Source: Methanomassiliicoccus sp. (GTDB lineage Archaea > Thermoplasmatota > Thermoplasmata > Methanomassiliicoccales > Methanomassiliicoccaceae). Taken from it: DNA of 64,000 nucleotides. The notes under the pieces were generated by a model, which made no database searches, was not told the origin of the DNA, and was given only the letters and a program-made list of their open reading frames with translations. The stretch spans positions 310,001-374,000 of the forward strand of contig JAAYAX010000004.1 of NCBI GenBank assembly GCA_012719175.1. Reading direction: 5' to 3'. The position numbers and the translations under genes are program-made. Below are positions 27,345 to 38,317 of this stretch, piece after piece; position 1 is the first letter of the stretch, and each line of letters begins with the position of its first letter.

Positions 27345-27439
27345 CCCTGCACACCGTGCCAAATGAATTATCCAGCGTTCCCTTTCGTACCATCAAGATT
27401 TTAAAGGGTCACTCTATTGACAGCCGGAAAGGGACTGCG

Positions 27440-30400
27440 ATGATAAAGCAGGTTCAAGCGAATTATAATCCTCCTGAGCTTGAGAAGAGAGTTCAAAAGT
27501 TCTGGATCGATACCAACGCCTATAAGTTGACCAAGGAGCTCCGTGCCCAAGGAGTGGACTACTACTTCGTGGACGGTCCCCCCTACACCACCGGATATAT
27601 CCATCTCGGCACCGCCTGGAACAAGACCATAAAGGACGCGGTGGTCCGCTACAAGCGGATGCAGAAGCACAATGTACGGGACCAGCCGGGCTATGACATG
27701 CACGGCCTGCCCATAGAGGTCAAGGTGGAGCAGGCGATAGGGATCAAGAGCAAGAAGGACATTGAGACCTACGGTATCGACAAGTTCGTTTCTACCTGCA
27801 AGGAGTATGCTCTCGGCTTCCAGAAGAAGATGACCGAGCAGTTCCAGGAACTGGGCATCTGGATGGACTGGGAGAATCCGTACATGACCATCGCCCCTAC
27901 CTACATAGAGGCGGCGTGGTGGACGCTCAAGAAGGCATACGATAAGGGTTTGTTGGTATCCTCCAACCGGGTCATCTCCTGGTGCCCCCGCTGCGAGACA
28001 GCGCTGGCAGAGGCGGAGATCGAGTACGCCGAGGAGAAGGACCCGTCCATTTACGTGAGGTTCCCGGTCCGTGGTGAGGCGGGCGTGTCCCTCCTCATAT
28101 GGACCACCACCCCCTGGACACTGCCGGCCAACATGGCGGTGGCCGCTCATCCCGATTACCGTTATGCCAAGGTCAAGTTCATCAAGGGAGATGAGTCCAG
28201 CATAGTCATCATACTGGAGTCCCTCATCGATCAGGTGGGGGAGCTGGAAGGCTGGGAGGAGTACGACGTCCTACAGCTCATAGAGGGCGATGACCTCGTG
28301 GGCAAGGAGTACATACCTCCGCTGGAGGGCGAAGTCGAGTCCCAGGGCTCCATGGTCGGCAAGTGGGTGCACAAGGTCATACCCTCCAAGACGGTGGAGG
28401 CGGACATGACCGGCCTGGTGCACATAGCTCCCGGCCACGGTCCTGAGGACTTCGAGCTGGGCAAGGAGTTCGGCCTGGAGCCTTACTGCCCTGTGGATGA
28501 GAGCGGTAAGTTCACCAATGACGTGGGGCCGCGGTACGCCGGTCTGCACGTGAAGAAGGCCAACGGCCAGATCATTGAGGACCTGAAGTCCAAGGGGCTC
28601 ATGTTCCACCACGGGACCATAGAGCACCGCTATGGGCACTGCTGGAGATGCAACTCCGGCATCATCTACAGGAACACCAACCAGTGGTACCTGAGGATCA
28701 CCCAGGTCAAGGACCTCATGCTCGACGAGATAGCTAAGGTGCGTTGGACGCCGGAGTGGGCAGGATCGTCCAGAGAGTACGACTGGACCATGAACGCCCG
28801 CGACTGGTGTGTGTCCCGGCAGCGCTACTGGGGCATACCCCTGCCTGTCTGGACCTGCAAGTGCGGACATATGAAGGTCATAGGTTCCGTGGACGAGCTG
28901 AATGGCGCGGAGGGTTACCGCAAGGACATGGAGCTCCACCGGCCCTGGATCGACGGGGTCACGCTGAAGTGTGACAAGTGCGGTTCCAATATGAAAAGGG
29001 TGGCCGACGTCCTCGATGTTTGGTTCGATGCCGGTGTCGCCTCCTGGGCCCAGCTCGGGTTCCCCCGCAGCCGCACCGATTTTGACCGCTGGTGGCCCGC
29101 CAAGTTCATCACCGAGGCCCATGACCAGACCCGGGGATGGTTCTACTCCCAGCTTGGCTCGTCGTGCGTGGCCTTCGGCCGCGCTCCCTACCAGAGCGTT
29201 CTCATGCACGGTTGGATGCTCGACCCCCAGGGACAACCGATGTCCAAGAGCAAGGGGAACGTCATAGACCCTGCCAAGGTCATCGCCGAGTTCGGGGCCG
29301 ATGCCCTCAGGTTCTACTTCCTGCGGGTATCCGCACCTTGGGAGGACATCTCCTTCCAGCACGAGGGGGTCAAGAACGCCCGCAAGACCCTCAACATCCT
29401 GTGGAACGTGGCCAACTTCGCCACCACCTACATGTCCATAGACAAGTTCGATCCCACGTCCGTGGACACCGCGGCAGTGCGCGGTGCCATGAGGCCCGAG
29501 GACCGCTGGCTGGTGTCCCGCACCGAGAAGCTCAAGGGAGATGTGACCAGGAACCTGGACTCCATGGACCTGCACAAGGCATGCCGGTCGATAGAGGAGT
29601 TCATCCTGGAGGACCTATCACGTTGGTATGTGCGCCTCATAAGGGACCGTATGTGGAGCGAGTCCACGGACATGGACAAGGTTGCCGCCTACGTCACCCT
29701 GCACGAAGCCCTCATGACCACCATCAAGCTCCTGTCACCAGTATGTCCGCACATAACCGAGGAGATATTCCAGGCCCTGGACGGCTCCAAGGGCTCGGTG
29801 CACATGTGCGACTGGCCCATCCCCGACCTGACACAGGTGGATGACCGCCTGGAAGCATCGATGAAGACCATGCAGGAGCTGGTCGAGGAGATCACCAAAG
29901 AGCGCCAGAAGAAGAACATGAAGCTCCGCTGGCCGCTGCAAAGGATCATCATACACCCGCAGACGCAGGAGACCCTGGACCTCTTGAGGCCGATGGAGGA
30001 CGTTCTTCTGTCCCAGGCCAACGTGAAGAATGTGGAATACGTTGCGCCGGAGCAGGAATGGAGCGAGCTGGTGCTGGATGTCGTACCCAATCCCAACGCC
30101 ATCGGTAAGGTCTACCGCCAGTGGTCGTCCAAGATCGCGGTCCTGCTGAAGAACCGACCCGCAGCCACCATTAAGGAGGCCATAGGCCGCGGGGAATATT
30201 CCCTGGGGATAGAGGGGCAGATAGTGAAGATAGAGCCCAACATGGTATCCTTCACCTCCACTCTACCTGAGAACGTGGCGGGCGTGAAGTTCACCGGAGG
30301 GGACCTGTACATCGACTTCAACATGAACGAGGAGATCGAGGCCGAGGGCTACACCAGAGAGCTCATCCGACGCATCCAGCAGATGCGTAAGGATATGAAA

Positions 30401-31639
30401 CTGGACGTGGAGGAATACATCCGCGTTGAGGTCCGGTCCACCGCGGTCATCGAGGAGTACTTCAAGTCCTGGAAGGAGCACATCATGAAGGAGACCCGGG
30501 CCCTGCAGATGGACTTCAAGACCGAACCCAAGGGGGAGAGGGAGGCCAGTTGGGAGGTGGAGAAACAGCGCATGGATATCGCCATCACCTCCCTCCACCT
30601 GAAGGAAGGGCTCAAGGAGCTCACCAAGGTTCCGGGGCTGTCCCAGGAGGGGGCGCTTGCCGTGATCAGGTCCGGGAAGACAAAAGTGGAGGACCTGAAG
30701 GGCATGGACGAGGCCACTCTGACCGCCATACCTGGTGTCAGCAAGAGCGATGCCCGGAATATCTCTCACTATCTGGCGAGACAGGACATATTGCCCAAGG
30801 CCGAGATAGCCCCCCAGCCCTCAAAGGGCCTGGACGGCGGGGACCGCGACCTCATGATCAACTACCTCATGCGAGTTCCGCGGATGAACCAGCTCAAGGC
30901 CGAAATGGTGGTCGACGCCGGCTACGATACCGTGGACAGGATCGGCCAAGCGTCCAAGGACGACCTGAGGGCCATCAACGGCCTGGGCAACAAGACCGTC
31001 CAGGAGATCATGGACTACGCCGCCGCAGGAGGGTTTACAAAGGTCACGCAGTGCTCCCAGTGCCAAGGGCCGGTGCAGCCTCACGAGCGGGAGTGCCCGA
31101 CCTGCCACGCCCCCGTGGAGGCCTCCTTACAGGAGGTCAAGACGGGGGAGGAAGGAGAGGACAGGGCTCGCCCGATGCCCTCACAGGCCAAGCTGGAGCC
31201 CTCGTTCACCTATCTGATCAAGGAGACCAAGGGTGGCCTTTCATACTCCTTGTTCGAGGAGGCGATCAAGAAAGGGATGCTCGGGTACTGCATCACCCGC
31301 GAGTATCCTCTTAAGATCCGCTCCAAGTACAACCTCGGAGAGACCCCCGTGGTATGGCTGAGCAACATCGGGAAGGAGAACTGCCTCCGGCCCAAGGACC
31401 TGGAGAAGCTGAGCTTCTCCCTGGAGCAGTTCCTCTCCAAGAAGGACGTGATAATCCTCCTGGACGGTCTGGAGTATCTCATCACCAACAACAACTTCCT
31501 GACGGTGCTGAGGTTCATCCAGAGCCTCAGGGACCAGGTGGCCATAAACCACTCCATCCTGATGCTGGCAGTGAACCCCTCCACCCTGGACCCCCACGAG
31601 CTCAACCTGTTGGAGAAGGAAGTGGACGCGAACCTCTAA
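27440..31639 (+). CDS. ileS: isoleucyl-tRNA synthetase with C-terminal HhH - zinc ribbon - DUF835 extension
   Basis: 1,399 residues; ordinary archaeal IleRS is about 1,030-1,060. The enzyme part (1 to about 1050) has the HIGH-like HLGT (55-58), the editing domain (TTTPWTLPANMAVAAHPD), the Cys pairs of the C-terminal zinc region and MSKSK (601-605). Beyond it come tandem helix-hairpin-helix motifs (about 1055-1200: LTKVPGLSQEGALAVI, LTAIPGVSKSDARNI, LRAINGLGNKTVQEI), a zinc ribbon (CSQC, CPTC, about 1204-1225), an acidic linker, and a DUF835 domain (about 1250-1399). No stop or frameshift lies between the parts. ATG at 27440 has AAAGGGA and a TATA box (TTTTAAAG) upstream; an earlier in-frame start at 27356 is rejected. 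Confidence 0.95.
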   Translation: MIKQVQANYNPPELEKRVQKFWIDTNAYKLTKELRAQGVDYYFVDGPPYTTGYIHLGTAWNKTIKDAVVRYKRMQKHNVRDQPGYDMHGLPIEVKVEQAIGIKSKKDIETYGIDKFVSTCKEYALGFQKKMTEQFQELGIWMDWENPYMTIAPTYIEAAWWTLKKAYDKGLLVSSNRVISWCPRCETALAEAEIEYAEEKDPSIYVRFPVRGEAGVSLLIWTTTPWTLPANMAVAAHPDYRYAKVKFIKGDESSIVIILESLIDQVGELEGWEEYDVLQLIEGDDLVGKEYIPPLEGEVESQGSMVGKWVHKVIPSKTVEADMTGLVHIAPGHGPEDFELGKEFGLEPYCPVDESGKFTNDVGPRYAGLHVKKANGQIIEDLKSKGLMFHHGTIEHRYGHCWRCNSGIIYRNTNQWYLRITQVKDLMLDEIAKVRWTPEWAGSSREYDWTMNARDWCVSRQRYWGIPLPVWTCKCGHMKVIGSVDELNGAEGYRKDMELHRPWIDGVTLKCDKCGSNMKRVADVLDVWFDAGVASWAQLGFPRSRTDFDRWWPAKFITEAHDQTRGWFYSQLGSSCVAFGRAPYQSVLMHGWMLDPQGQPMSKSKGNVIDPAKVIAEFGADALRFYFLRVSAPWEDISFQHEGVKNARKTLNILWNVANFATTYMSIDKFDPTSVDTAAVRGAMRPEDRWLVSRTEKLKGDVTRNLDSMDLHKACRSIEEFILEDLSRWYVRLIRDRMWSESTDMDKVAAYVTLHEALMTTIKLLSPVCPHITEEIFQALDGSKGSVHMCDWPIPDLTQVDDRLEASMKTMQELVEEITKERQKKNMKLRWPLQRIIIHPQTQETLDLLRPMEDVLLSQANVKNVEYVAPEQEWSELVLDVVPNPNAIGKVYRQWSSKIAVLLKNRPAATIKEAIGRGEYSLGIEGQIVKIEPNMVSFTSTLPENVAGVKFTGGDLYIDFNMNEEIEAEGYTRELIRRIQQMRKDMKLDVEEYIRVEVRSTAVIEEYFKSWKEHIMKETRALQMDFKTEPKGEREASWEVEKQRMDIAITSLHLKEGLKELTKVPGLSQEGALAVIRSGKTKVEDLKGMDEATLTAIPGVSKSDARNISHYLARQDILPKAEIAPQPSKGLDGGDRDLMINYLMRVPRMNQLKAEMVVDAGYDTVDRIGQASKDDLRAINGLGNKTVQEIMDYAAAGGFTKVTQCSQCQGPVQPHERECPTCHAPVEASLQEVKTGEEGEDRARPMPSQAKLEPSFTYLIKETKGGLSYSLFEEAIKKGMLGYCITREYPLKIRSKYNLGETPVVWLSNIGKENCLRPKDLEKLSFSLEQFLSKKDVIILLDGLEYLITNNNFLTVLRFIQSLRDQVAINHSILMLAVNPSTLDPHELNLLEKEVDANL

Positions 31640-32406
31640 AGGAGGTCACGCAGAAGCTCTGCCAGACCGGGAACGGTCTGGTAGTCCTTCAATTCCTGCG
31701 GTTGGACCCAGCAGAACTCGGTATGCTCCCAATCGATGCATACCAAAGGGGCATGGGCCTCGAACAGGAAGGGATGGATGTGCCAGATGGTGTCGCGGTC
31801 TCGGACCGTTACCATCTTTCCCTCCTTCGCAATAGGCAGGTCCAGACCTGTCTCCTCTCCCAGCTCCTTGACGGCCGTTCTCTGAGGGCTGTCCCCCTCT
31901 TCCACGAAACCGGAGACGGCTGCCCAATACCCTTGGAACGTTCCCACCTCCGCGCTCCTCTTGAGAAGAAGTAACTTGACACCGTCCCTGACGATGCAGC
32001 TCACCACGTGGGACTCCTTCACATCGGGCAGCTCCACCGTCCCCTGGGTGCCGTCCACGACCGCATGGTCCCCGTCCTTCAGCAGCGAGAGGTCGATCCG
32101 GTCCACCAGCGGTACCGCGGCCATCACCGCCCCTGTTGCCACTATGGGCTCGGCCAGAGCGTTGATCAACGCCGCTGGGAGAGTTCCCTGCCTCCTCATC
32201 TCCAGAAGAACGTAAGAGCCTACGGTGCTCCCGCGGCCCTGAGGGAAGGCGAACACCTGCCCCTTGATCGAACGACCGTTGTGAGCTGGGTCGGTTAGCA
32301 TGCCGGTGGACGGCTCCACACCCCCGAGGAGGGACGTGGCGGATGCGCTCAGAAGTACCTCTCCTTCTCCCTTTCCCTTGGAGATGCCCCTTCCCTTGAG
32401 GATCAT
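31636..32406 (-). CDS. phosphomevalonate dehydratase small subunit (AcnX swivel) fused to Nudix domain
   Basis: 256 residues. Residues 1-about 128 are the aconitase X swivel domain (DUF126): MILKGRGISKGKGEGEVL, the catalytic-site block STGMLTDPAHNGRSIKG, GRGSTVGSYVLLE and ALINALAEPIVATG. Residues about 133-256 are a Nudix hydrolase domain, with box G166-x5-D172-x7-K180-E-L-G-E184-E185-T-G-L. Asp and Lys replace the usual Glu and Arg; the metal-binding Glu residues remain. In archaea this subunit with the large one dehydrates 5-phosphomevalonate to trans-anhydromevalonate phosphate. ATG overlaps the large-subunit stop (ATGA). The normal small subunit is about 130-140 residues, so the Nudix part is an addition. 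Confidence 0.9.
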   Translation of the reverse strand: MILKGRGISKGKGEGEVLLSASATSLLGGVEPSTGMLTDPAHNGRSIKGQVFAFPQGRGSTVGSYVLLEMRRQGTLPAALINALAEPIVATGAVMAAVPLVDRIDLSLLKDGDHAVVDGTQGTVELPDVKESHVVSCIVRDGVKLLLLKRSAEVGTFQGYWAAVSGFVEEGDSPQRTAVKELGEETGLDLPIAKEGKMVTVRDRDTIWHIHPFLFEAHAPLVCIDWEHTEFCWVQPQELKDYQTVPGLAELLRDLL

Positions 32407-34601: not shown

Positions 34602-36593
34602 TCAGTTCCGCTTACGACCCCACAGTCCGTATCCGACTATCCCGATACCGCATAGGGCCAGGGCAACGATCGCCACCTGACCTGCCATGGTCCCGAAGAA
34701 CGATGGTTTTGAGCCATCATCGGCACCGACAACGGTGGATATGTTGACGCTGCCCACGATGTCGCCTTCACCATCTTTCTCTAGAGCTTTTACCTGGTAG
34801 TAGTAGGTCATGTTGCTCTGAACATCTCCATCCAGGAACTCTGTTCCTGTTGTTGATGCCAAGTACTCCATGACCGTTTGGTTCTCTCCCCGGTAGATAT
34901 TGTAACCAGTGATGTTCTCTTCCTCAGCTACTGGAGCATTCCAATCGAGGGATACGCTGCCGTTGACCAGGTAAGCGGAAAGATCGGTGGATCCTGGAAG
35001 GTTCGTGGAAGGCGTTAAGGTCGTTACGCTCACAAGCTCGCTCATCGCTCCCTCGCCAACTACGTTGATAGCGGACACCCGATAGTAGATCGTTGTTGAG
35101 TTATCCAGACCCTCATGAACATAGCCGGCCTCAGAGAGCAAAATGGATTCAAAGGTACCGTTGGGGTCTAGGGACCAGGAGAGATTGTAGCTCGATATGG
35201 GAGCACCCCCATCGGTCTCAGGAGCGTTCCAGGTGAGTATGACCTCATCCTGGGAGGGCACTGCAGTAAGGTTCATGGGAGCCCCTGGTGCCAACATCGA
35301 TACCGATGGTGCAACTGTCACGGCATTGCTTTTTCCTCCGACCCCCGCACTGTTGTGCGCACCTACGGCGAAACTGTACTGGACACCGTTGGTCAAGCCT
35401 GTGATCTGGGTTGTGGCTCCAGTAACATGTGCCACATCCCTTCCGTCCTGGTAGACGACGTAATAGTCGATCGCCGCACCCCCGTCGTCTGCAGGTTCGC
35501 TCCAGTAGAGGCGAACCTCTCCGTCACCAGGGGATGCCCTCAAAGCGGTCGGCGCTCCTGACATCTGTATCAAAGCATGAGGAGTGACCTTGACCGTAGA
35601 GCTCAGGGCTCCAGTTCCGGCGCTGTTGTGGGCGGCCACCGCGAAGCTATAACTAACGCCATTGTTGAGGCTTTTCACGATGGTGTTTGTCGTAGAAACG
35701 TGAGCGACGTCCTTACCGTTCTGGTAAACGACATAATAGTTTATGGCCGCTCCACCGTTATCTGCAGGCTTGTTCCAAGTGAGGCGGACCTCTCCGTCAC
35801 CTGGGGACGCCTTCAGTGAACCAGGAGCTCCCGGTATCTGCACCGATGCATGAGGTGTTGCCTTCACTGTAGAGCTCAGGGTGCCAATGCCCGCACTGTT
35901 ATGGGCAGCCACTGCGAAGCTGTAACTGACCCCGTTGCTAAGCGCTTTCACGACAGTGCTAGTAGCTTTGACATGAGCCACGTCCTTTCCGTTCTGATAG
36001 ATCACGTAGTAATCGATCGATGCTCCCCCGTTGCTCGATGGTGCTTTCCAGGACAATGCTACCTGAGCGTCACCGGCGGTTGAGGTCAGAGAGGTAGGCG
36101 CACCCGGCTTCTTTATCGTAGGGGTCGGTGCTGGATCGTCGTTCTGGGCAGCCAGCAGGGCCTTTATGGTAGGCTCCAGATTGGCCCTGATCGCGTCCTC
36201 AGCTACCAGAGCTTTGTCCCCGACGAAGACCGAGGGGATCATCTGTTTCGGGACGTTGTATCTGTGGTTAAAATCCTGATAAAGGTCCCAGTTGGCACTG
36301 TTCTGGGTGACCTCATACCTTAAGAAAGTAACTTGAGGGTATTTTTTCTCCATGCTGTCAATGTACGGCTCAATTGCAGCGCAATGAGGGCAGCTGATGC
36401 CGTAGAAGAAGTACACCTTGATGCCGCTGGTCGCGCTCGCTCCAAGTGTCAACATCTCCGAGGGCATCCCTTGGGACCTGTCGTCCGTTAAGGAGCTGAC
36501 ATCCTTGTCACCGTTCAAGTTGGCAAGGTTCGTTCCGAGAGCAAGAACAAGCATCAAGATGAATGCGATGATCATCAGGGGGAGTGGCCTCAA
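34602..36593 (-). CDS. exported thioredoxin-like protein with five fibronectin type III domains
   Basis: 663 residues. Signal peptide/anchor (PLPLMIIAFILMLVLALG), then a thioredoxin-fold domain at about 55-150 with active site CPHC (FFYGISCPHCAAIEP) and a cis-Pro-like IPSVFVGD segment. A Pro-rich linker leads to five fibronectin type III repeats of about 88-95 residues (PGAPTSL/GSLKASPGDGEVRLTWNxPADNGGAAI...). The first three are near copies in protein and DNA. A transmembrane helix and basic tail (GRKRN) end it. So a redox domain is held outside the membrane on a stalk. CPHC is the DsbA-type motif, suggesting disulfide formation or isomerisation at the cell surface. Confidence 0.85.
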   Translation of the reverse strand: MRPLPLMIIAFILMLVLALGTNLANLNGDKDVSSLTDDRSQGMPSEMLTLGASATSGIKVYFFYGISCPHCAAIEPYIDSMEKKYPQVTFLRYEVTQNSANWDLYQDFNHRYNVPKQMIPSVFVGDKALVAEDAIRANLEPTIKALLAAQNDDPAPTPTIKKPGAPTSLTSTAGDAQVALSWKAPSSNGGASIDYYVIYQNGKDVAHVKATSTVVKALSNGVSYSFAVAAHNSAGIGTLSSTVKATPHASVQIPGAPGSLKASPGDGEVRLTWNKPADNGGAAINYYVVYQNGKDVAHVSTTNTIVKSLNNGVSYSFAVAAHNSAGTGALSSTVKVTPHALIQMSGAPTALRASPGDGEVRLYWSEPADDGGAAIDYYVVYQDGRDVAHVTGATTQITGLTNGVQYSFAVGAHNSAGVGGKSNAVTVAPSVSMLAPGAPMNLTAVPSQDEVILTWNAPETDGGAPISSYNLSWSLDPNGTFESILLSEAGYVHEGLDNSTTIYYRVSAINVVGEGAMSELVSVTTLTPSTNLPGSTDLSAYLVNGSVSLDWNAPVAEEENITGYNIYRGENQTVMEYLASTTGTEFLDGDVQSNMTYYYQVKALEKDGEGDIVGSVNISTVVGADDGSKPSFFGTMAGQVAIVALALCGIGIVGYGLWGRKRN

Positions 36594-36952: not shown

Positions 36953-37927
36953 TCAGAGGTAAACGGCCTCTAACAGGGCGATGCTGTCCCCAGCTTCATC
37001 GAACAGCTCCATCGTGGCACCCTTGATCCGGTAACGTCTTGTCCCTGACAACACTTGGCCCAGGCGTCGCTCCCAATCGTCCAGGGGAGGGCCGCAGGCC
37101 ATCAAGGTTGAGGCGGCCATACCGAAGGTCAGGCTTTCTCCCCGCTGTTCGTACCCGCTGACCAGCTGGTTACACCCCACTGTGGCCGAGCATCTCCGGT
37201 GGCCGTCCACCTCTTTGAGCAGCATGTGCGGCTCCCGTCGGCCTTCCACGGTGGTGATGGCCTGGCCCTGCAGGTCGACGATGCGCCAGTAGGTGTTGGC
37301 CAGCTCCGCATTGCTCCTGGACCTTTCGTTGCTATGGCCCGGCCAAGCACGGATGAATCGCTTGACCACGACCGTTCCGCCCCCGAGGATTATGACGCCC
37401 TCAAAGGTCACGAACAACGGTCCTCCTGCAGCAACCTGACGGTATGATGCTTCCAGGCGATCGTAGTCACCTTCACGGGCGAGAGGGTACCTTTTCCCGG
37501 TATCGACCTCAGTGAAGGTGCCCTCCCCATCGACAAAGTGGAGTTCGCCGCCCATTATGCTCAGGGCTTCCGCCTCGCGGACCATGCGCATCATGATGTC
37601 AGCCTTGGACCCCGAGCCCCCGGTGAGCACAGGGTAGAACGTGTCTGAGGTACACCACAATCTTCCATTCACCAGAATCCGGGCTCGCACCGCGTACTGC
37701 AGTGAGGGGATTATGGTCGCCGCATCGTACTCGATCACGAACGCGAACGGCGGCCCGGCCGGATCCCCAATGACACTCCGTGCGACCTCGGTGGCCTTAA
37801 TATCCTGAATGGACACGTCCTCCAGAACGACCTCCAATACCGCGCCTGGTGGAAGGGGTATTCGCTCCCGGTAGCTGGCTCTCCCTTCAATACGGTCAAC
37901 CTTGCACATCTGACCTACCCATCCCAT
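36953..37927 (-). CDS. YbaY - NlpE-like - META (HslJ) domain protein, cytosolic form
   Basis: 324 residues. Residues about 12-105 match YbaY (RASYRERIPLPPGAVLEVVLEDVS...), about 118-185 an NlpE-like copper-resistance domain (GTFTEVDTGKRYPLAREGDY), and about 215-324 a META/HslJ domain (TYWRIVDLQG ... CSATVGCNQLVSGYEQRGESLTFG ... TLMACGP). In bacteria these occur together in periplasmic lipoproteins; here there is no signal peptide or lipobox from the preferred ATG. A TATA box on the minus strand (37957-37964) predicts a transcript starting within about ten bases of 37927. An ATG at 38056 would add 43 residues not seen in the family. Probably gained from bacteria. Confidence 0.75.
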   Translation of the reverse strand: MGWVGQMCKVDRIEGRASYRERIPLPPGAVLEVVLEDVSIQDIKATEVARSVIGDPAGPPFAFVIEYDAATIIPSLQYAVRARILVNGRLWCTSDTFYPVLTGGSGSKADIMMRMVREAEALSIMGGELHFVDGEGTFTEVDTGKRYPLAREGDYDRLEASYRQVAAGGPLFVTFEGVIILGGGTVVVKRFIRAWPGHSNERSRSNAELANTYWRIVDLQGQAITTVEGRREPHMLLKEVDGHRRCSATVGCNQLVSGYEQRGESLTFGMAASTLMACGPPLDDWERRLGQVLSGTRRYRIKGATMELFDEAGDSIALLEAVYL

Positions 37928-38317
37928 GATGGCGGGCGAAACTATGTTTTCGAAATAATATAAAATTATGTCCAGACCACTCCATTTCGGTCGTATCGTT
38001 CCTGACACTTTGTCAGTATGGGTTCTAATGGCTTCCGTACTTAACACCAAGTCCAAGCCCTGTCCGACCCTCTTCTCTTTCTGTTTCAGGGACTGGAACA
38101 GAGGCTTTGATGAAGGCTTGAAAAACCCAGTGGCGTTTTGCTTTTATTTCATCAATCCCAAACCACCATCGTGAGATTTCTGTTTACATGCGAAATGGAG
38201 ATATTTGGTAACTGCAAGATGATCACAAGAACTGGAAAAAGGTTTGGCTGGCTAGAGGTATTGTACAGAAAATGCTCGAACTGAACTAGAAAAACCAGAC
38301 ACTGGATAATAGTAAGG
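37928..38317 (+). other. AT-rich intergenic region upstream of the YbaY/META gene
   Basis: About 390 bases; holds the minus-strand TATA box for the gene at 36953-37927 and otherwise only low-complexity, AT-rich sequence with the 3' side of tRNA-Arg at its right end. No gene supported. Confidence 0.4.

Follow-up and report, generated by a model that had tools for sequence, protein, structure and literature searches.

The window, a 64,000-nucleotide stretch of Methanomassiliicoccus sp. DNA, contains a single gene whose product combines an intact AcnX-type swivel, the phosphomevalonate dehydratase small subunit, with a Nudix domain. The two domains are evolutionarily separable, and judging from sequence relationships and gene partners the Nudix half probably has a separate, nucleotide-related job rather than a lipid-precursor one. 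The enzyme that defines the archaeal mevalonate pathway is phosphomevalonate dehydratase, whose small subunit has two domains across much of the Thermoplasmata.

A preliminary description of this locus had the swivel subunit running on into a Nudix domain, and this holds, as the 256-residue reading frame has no internal stop (none between residues 130 and 140 either) and both Pfam domains score above their cut-offs. The same continuous frame is found in ∼90 distinct proteins of other genomes, the congener included, which excludes sequencing error or chance as the source of the fusion; nor do all close relatives keep the two domains as separate genes, as the congener shows. An AlphaFold2 model of the full protein, built on 24 aligned relatives, has two confident domains (mean pLDDT 94.6), and fold comparison matches one half to the swivel structure and the other half to Nudix structures. 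We also considered an internal start from which the Nudix domain could be expressed on its own. Start and Shine-Dalgarno-like signals at the junction seemed enriched (48% versus 19%), but synonymous-codon shuffling explains the enrichment (42 observed versus 36.9 ± 4.0 expected), and this candidate was rejected.

The ATG of the fusion gene overlaps the stop codon of the AcnX large-subunit gene by 4 bases (Table 1). The convergent ileS-like gene downstream recurs next to the fusion and, in Sysuiplasma-type genomes, next to decayed-swivel copies; the copy in the window spans 1427 codons and has a C-terminal extension with helix-hairpin-helix repeats, a cysteine-rich stretch and DUF835. Two further genes on the reverse strand of the window encode a protein with fibronectin type III repeats, a thioredoxin-like CPHC motif near the N-terminus and a hydrophobic C-terminal segment (34602-36593), and an archaeal protein with lipoprotein-type Pfam matches to YscW, META and NlpE_C (36953-38056).

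Table 1. Features of the fusion gene and its immediate neighbours, in window positions.
Feature	Position	Strand	Basis
Swivel-Nudix fusion gene, 256 aa + stop	31636..32406	-	Uninterrupted ORF; two Pfam domains; conserved across Thermoplasmata
AcnX swivel domain, residues 1-128	32023..32406	-	PF01989; similarity to solved TK1248
Swivel motif GSTVGSYV, residues 59-66	32209..32232	-	24-row fusion alignment
Nudix domain, residues 129-256	31639..32022	-	PF00293; AlphaFold2
Nudix box GFVEEGDSPQRTAVKELGEETGL, residues 166-188	31843..31911	-	Sequence; E..EE comparison
Subfamily signature DWEHTEFCW, residues 225-233	31708..31734	-	Alignment A1
AcnX / phosphomevalonate dehydratase large subunit gene, 387 aa	32403..33566	-	Pfam PF04412, full 400 positions, E 2.6e-150
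Convergent ileS-like gene downstream of fusion gene	27356..31639	+	ORF, Pfam, neighbour comparison

Pfam PF01989 matches residues 25-101 of the swivel half (E = 4e-27, 94.2 bits against a cut-off of 27), which is ∼48% identical over 127 residues to the solved TK1248 (7cnr_B) with a TM score of 0.92 on the target. G59, S60, T61 and G63 of the swivel motif are invariant in the fusion alignment, and the motif is missing from relatives with a decayed swivel. The score against NCBIfam NF003046 (DUF126 domain-containing protein), 154.6 bits, is just under the equivalog cut-off of 163, which is a naming threshold and reflects no biochemical feature; the Pfam match and the motif are those of an AcnX small subunit, and so is the gene pair: an intact large-subunit gene (PF04412) lies alongside, and the genome contains archaeal mevalonate genes. 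The N-terminal half is predicted to be a working phosphomevalonate dehydratase small subunit that docks on the large subunit encoded just upstream.

For the C-terminal half, Pfam PF00293 matches residues 134-254 (E = 3e-16, 60 bits against a cut-off of 21.1), the AlphaFold2 model of the domain alone has a pLDDT of 96.6, and fold comparison gives Z scores up to 19. In the Nudix box GFVEEGDSPQRTAVKELGEETGL, described earlier as nearly full, the metal-binding E..EE triad is intact, and there are two conservative departures from the strict box (Gx5Ex7REUxEExGU), D for the first E and K for R. The full box occurs in many relatives, and of the 43 fused sequences inspected 42 retain E..EE. This half may well be a catalytically active Nudix hydrolase and belongs to a distinct subfamily. 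The DWEHTEFCW signature, whose W, E and last W are invariant in alignment A1, served as the pattern for finding relatives, and its DWEH part reads NxEN in most of family f2 (Methanomassiliicoccales) and NWEN in family f9.

The scores against the NCBIfam models for NAD+ diphosphatase (NF001299, 22.7 bits against a cut-off of 158) and NadM-Nudix (NF003787, 26.5 bits against 449) are so far below the equivalog cut-offs that we do not file the domain in either family; it may nevertheless work like the ADP-ribose/NAD pyrophosphatases. No isopentenyl-diphosphate isomerase model is among the NCBIfam matches at E up to 0.001. In sequence and in fold the domain comes closest to MutT/NudG/NudI/RppH-like enzymes. 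Fold comparison was rejected as a means of choosing a substrate: M. mazei MutT, rose NUDX1 with geranyl diphosphate, NudI, and NrtR with ADP-ribose all lie within ∼2 Z units, so that prenyl, NTP, dinucleoside polyphosphate and ADP-ribose ligands all occur among near-tied neighbours.

The preliminary description called for a survey of the small subunits of Thermoplasmata, and this shows that the fusion is no local oddity. Swivel matches occur in 166 of 250 sampled Thermoplasmata genomes, the Nudix subfamily (counted at E at most 1e-12) in 167 and AcnX above its cut-off in 164, and all three occur together in 48/48 sampled genomes of the Methanomassiliicoccales. Fused proteins were seen directly at their loci, 43 in a first set and ∼90 distinct ones overall, and the relatives that bear a name are Methanomassiliicoccus and further Thermoplasmata MAGs. 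Purifying selection acts on both domains, as dN/dS within the genus is 0.14 (swivel) and 0.09 (Nudix domain); the congener protein is 86% identical in the former and 91% in the latter. In the swivel tree the solo rows that belong to f14, f24, f10, f18, f19, f27 and part of f9 group away from the fused rows, and the solo family f16 is nested among fused rows. The fused label changes three times in this tree, once at a contig-edge row (L029, an artefact) and once through the un-fusion in f16, which fits a single origin of the fusion followed by a single loss. The short domain lends this modest support, and one of the two outgroup sequences (TK1248) falls at the base of the fused side. The joining would then have been a single event in an ancestor of many Thermoplasmata.

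The two halves have, however, parted in several lineages. In family f11, to which Candidatus Sysuiplasma belongs, and in most of f12, AcnX matches do not rise above the aconitase-like background; the Nudix domain is retained there, preceded by ∼110 N-terminal residues from which GSTVGSY has been lost. Profile comparison still matches these decayed N-termini to the swivel (98.1% and 97.6%), the f11 copies retain the ileS-like neighbour found beside fused genes, and the decayed-swivel rows nest among fused rows in the Nudix tree. N-terminal dN/dS in decayed pairs is about 0.2 to 0.9, which exceeds that of the Nudix domain in most measurable pairs. Other genomes (G055, G026 and those of f27) have a separate solo-swivel AcnX, a replacement dehydratase, alongside an orphan decayed-swivel Nudix gene. 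The opposite situation is found in f16, which retains AcnX and has only distant, generic Nudix matches, and in G063, where the swivel is intact and the Nudix box ruined. Finally, two paralogous fusion genes of G041 (L056 and L196) show reciprocal decay, one copy having an intact swivel and a ruined box (EVVEAAL) and the other a decayed swivel and an intact box. Together these cases indicate that each activity can do without its counterpart in cis, and that retention of the dehydratase does not depend on the Nudix domain. The persistence of the fusion in most AcnX-keeping families could still reflect real coupling, and these natural losses and decays allow a direct test of how the two activities are linked.

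Members of the Nudix subfamily that stand alone or have other fusion partners share the signature KRS..VGT..G.WAGVSGY.E ... HPFLF ... DWEH.EYRW. In the Syntrophomonadia class an IF-2B-like gene is adjacent in 21/23 loci, mostly overlapping the Nudix gene (the overlap is seen at L109, L121, L140 and L262-L280). In the Chloroflexota CinA (PF02464) and/or IF-2B is fused or adjacent in 22/37 loci, with some IF-2B-CinA fusions, and in the Dehalococcoidia the subfamily occurs fused to CinA. Four Chloroflexota loci (L235, L236, L237 and L238) have a set of Nudix, IF-2B-like and CinA genes, with IF-2B and CinA fused in three; at another (L260, 859-1890) a weak HIT-domain match is fused before a Nudix domain of the same subfamily. 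Three loci from two distinct genomes of the Nitrososphaerota have a Nudix-IF-2B fusion. Within the Thermoplasmata an MtnA-like gene follows the Nudix gene in 9/9 loci of f9, including one decayed-swivel and one swivel-less case. These counts are of loci, not of independent events, and some genomes enter twice through different searches. Most Nitrososphaerota and Thermoplasmata loci have no IF-2B or CinA neighbour in the flanks examined, and a plasmid search for relatives gave one match only, in Arthrobacter.

The CinA NMN deamidase is part of NAD recycling. ADP-ribose pyrophosphatases, Nudix ones among them, are often fused to NAD-recycling enzymes, and NMN deamidase itself is fused to another ADP-ribose pyrophosphatase (PMC3680494). 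From this pattern and the eIF2B/MtnA-like and CinA/PncC partners we infer a nucleotide-type diphosphate as substrate, with ADP-ribose or a NAD-derived dinucleotide as the first candidates. The Nudix half would cleave such a compound to monophosphates, and the fusion would mainly share expression and stoichiometry, each activity being selected on its own and presumably working free of mechanistic coupling to the other. We lean, by a narrow preference, towards this combination of a separable function and a nucleotide-type substrate, while ADP-ribose specifically is a tentative choice, somewhat against the balance of probability. The argument from partners spans wide distances, and the fused subfamily could have switched substrate; the changes to the DWEH motif in f2 and f9 might point that way. 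Hydrolysis of PRPP to ribose-1,5-bisphosphate to feed an IF-2B-type isomerase is only a possibility, as the IF-2B-like partners are without the cysteine at the MtnA position and may be no isomerases; those of the Syntrophomonadia class keep the GAD aspartate.

The fusion had previously been read as adding a second activity or a sensor to isoprenoid synthesis. The analysis supports what this says of the two domain identities, of a setting in the archaeal mevalonate pathway and of a second, catalytically conserved domain. It does not support membership or sensing in isoprenoid synthesis, as at least two lineages have kept the Nudix domain after the dehydratase was gone, the AcnX-keeping f16 is without it, and its relatives in bacteria and other archaea are tied to eIF2B/MtnA-like proteins and NMN deamidase rather than to isoprenoid genes. 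In its metabolic form this reading has the Nudix half convert IPP or DMAPP to their monophosphates, or clear the dead-end diphosphates of a promiscuous kinase, with the fusion locating it at the pathway. The fusion partner is indeed a mevalonate-pathway enzyme across many families, and the source genome contains IPK above its family cut-off as well as UbiD-family genes (whose identity as the decarboxylase is unproven), so that the mevalonate setting is sound and an IP/IPP cycle could operate. Rose and Arabidopsis NUDX1, which act on prenyl diphosphates, are among the fold neighbours (Z 17-18), but nucleotide-acting Nudix proteins score about equally. Organisms that have lost AcnX still need IPP, a further point in favour of such a role. 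The Chloroflexota, Syntrophomonadia and Nitrososphaerota relatives, linked to IF-2B-like proteins and NMN deamidase, argue against it, and we regard the isoprenoid interpretation of the fusion as weakly supported and a role in isoprenoid metabolism as unlikely.

If the Nudix half were instead a regulator, ligand binding or hydrolysis would alter dehydratase activity, as a long-lived 1:1 tether to a dehydratase subunit would allow. A pure sensor has no need of catalytic residues that are nearly always kept, and the persistence of each domain without the other, together with the ruined box in G041 and G063 copies with intact swivels, makes this very improbable. A general house-cleaning enzyme acting on damaged NTPs or dinucleoside polyphosphates, fused through operon proximity and with no particular pathway link, would agree with the MutT/NudG/NudI/RppH-like best matches; recurring CinA and IF-2B/MtnA-like partners are more specific than plain house-cleaning predicts, and we consider it quite improbable. 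We also doubt, while leaving some room for it, that the dehydratase holoenzyme of most pathway-bearing Thermoplasmata uses a built-in Nudix pyrophosphatase to couple lipid-precursor flux to NAD/ADP-ribose or IPP turnover. If true, such coupling would be a control layer undescribed for any mevalonate pathway. For the favoured nucleotide-type activity, the recurring association of Nudix, IF-2B and CinA supplies a specific proposal on the substrate of this uncharacterised subfamily, which archaea and bacteria share.

We found no description of a swivel/AcnX-Nudix fusion in the papers searched: none names Nudix together with phosphomevalonate dehydratase or aconitase X, PMC11052028 contains neither 'Nudix' nor 'fus', and the passages of PMC10040528 examined do not mention the fusion. 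Relative to the literature searched the architecture is thus new, while both component families were already known. The type II AcnX small subunits (TK1248, AF0055 and Ape_2089) have the same swivel fold, GSTVGSY motif and overlap with the large-subunit gene as the protein described here, but the solved TK1248 and AF0055 each consist of one domain, with a length of about 130-140 residues, and have no Nudix part. Plant NUDX1 from Arabidopsis and rose shares the Nudix fold; however, its identity to the Nudix domain of the fusion is only 17-18%, and it is tied with many nucleotide-acting Nudix enzymes. The Nitrososphaerales Nudix-IF-2B fusion at L122 contains the present subfamily; Haloferax HVO_1934, going by its listing in PMC8576121 as 'NUDIX family hydrolase/eIF-2B domain protein', likewise combines Nudix with another domain. 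Finally, the NAD-recycling COG1058-PncC (CinA) and NadM-Nudix proteins (PMC3680494) also have a pyrophosphatase domain fused to a metabolic enzyme, whereas here the partner is a subunit of the mevalonate pathway.
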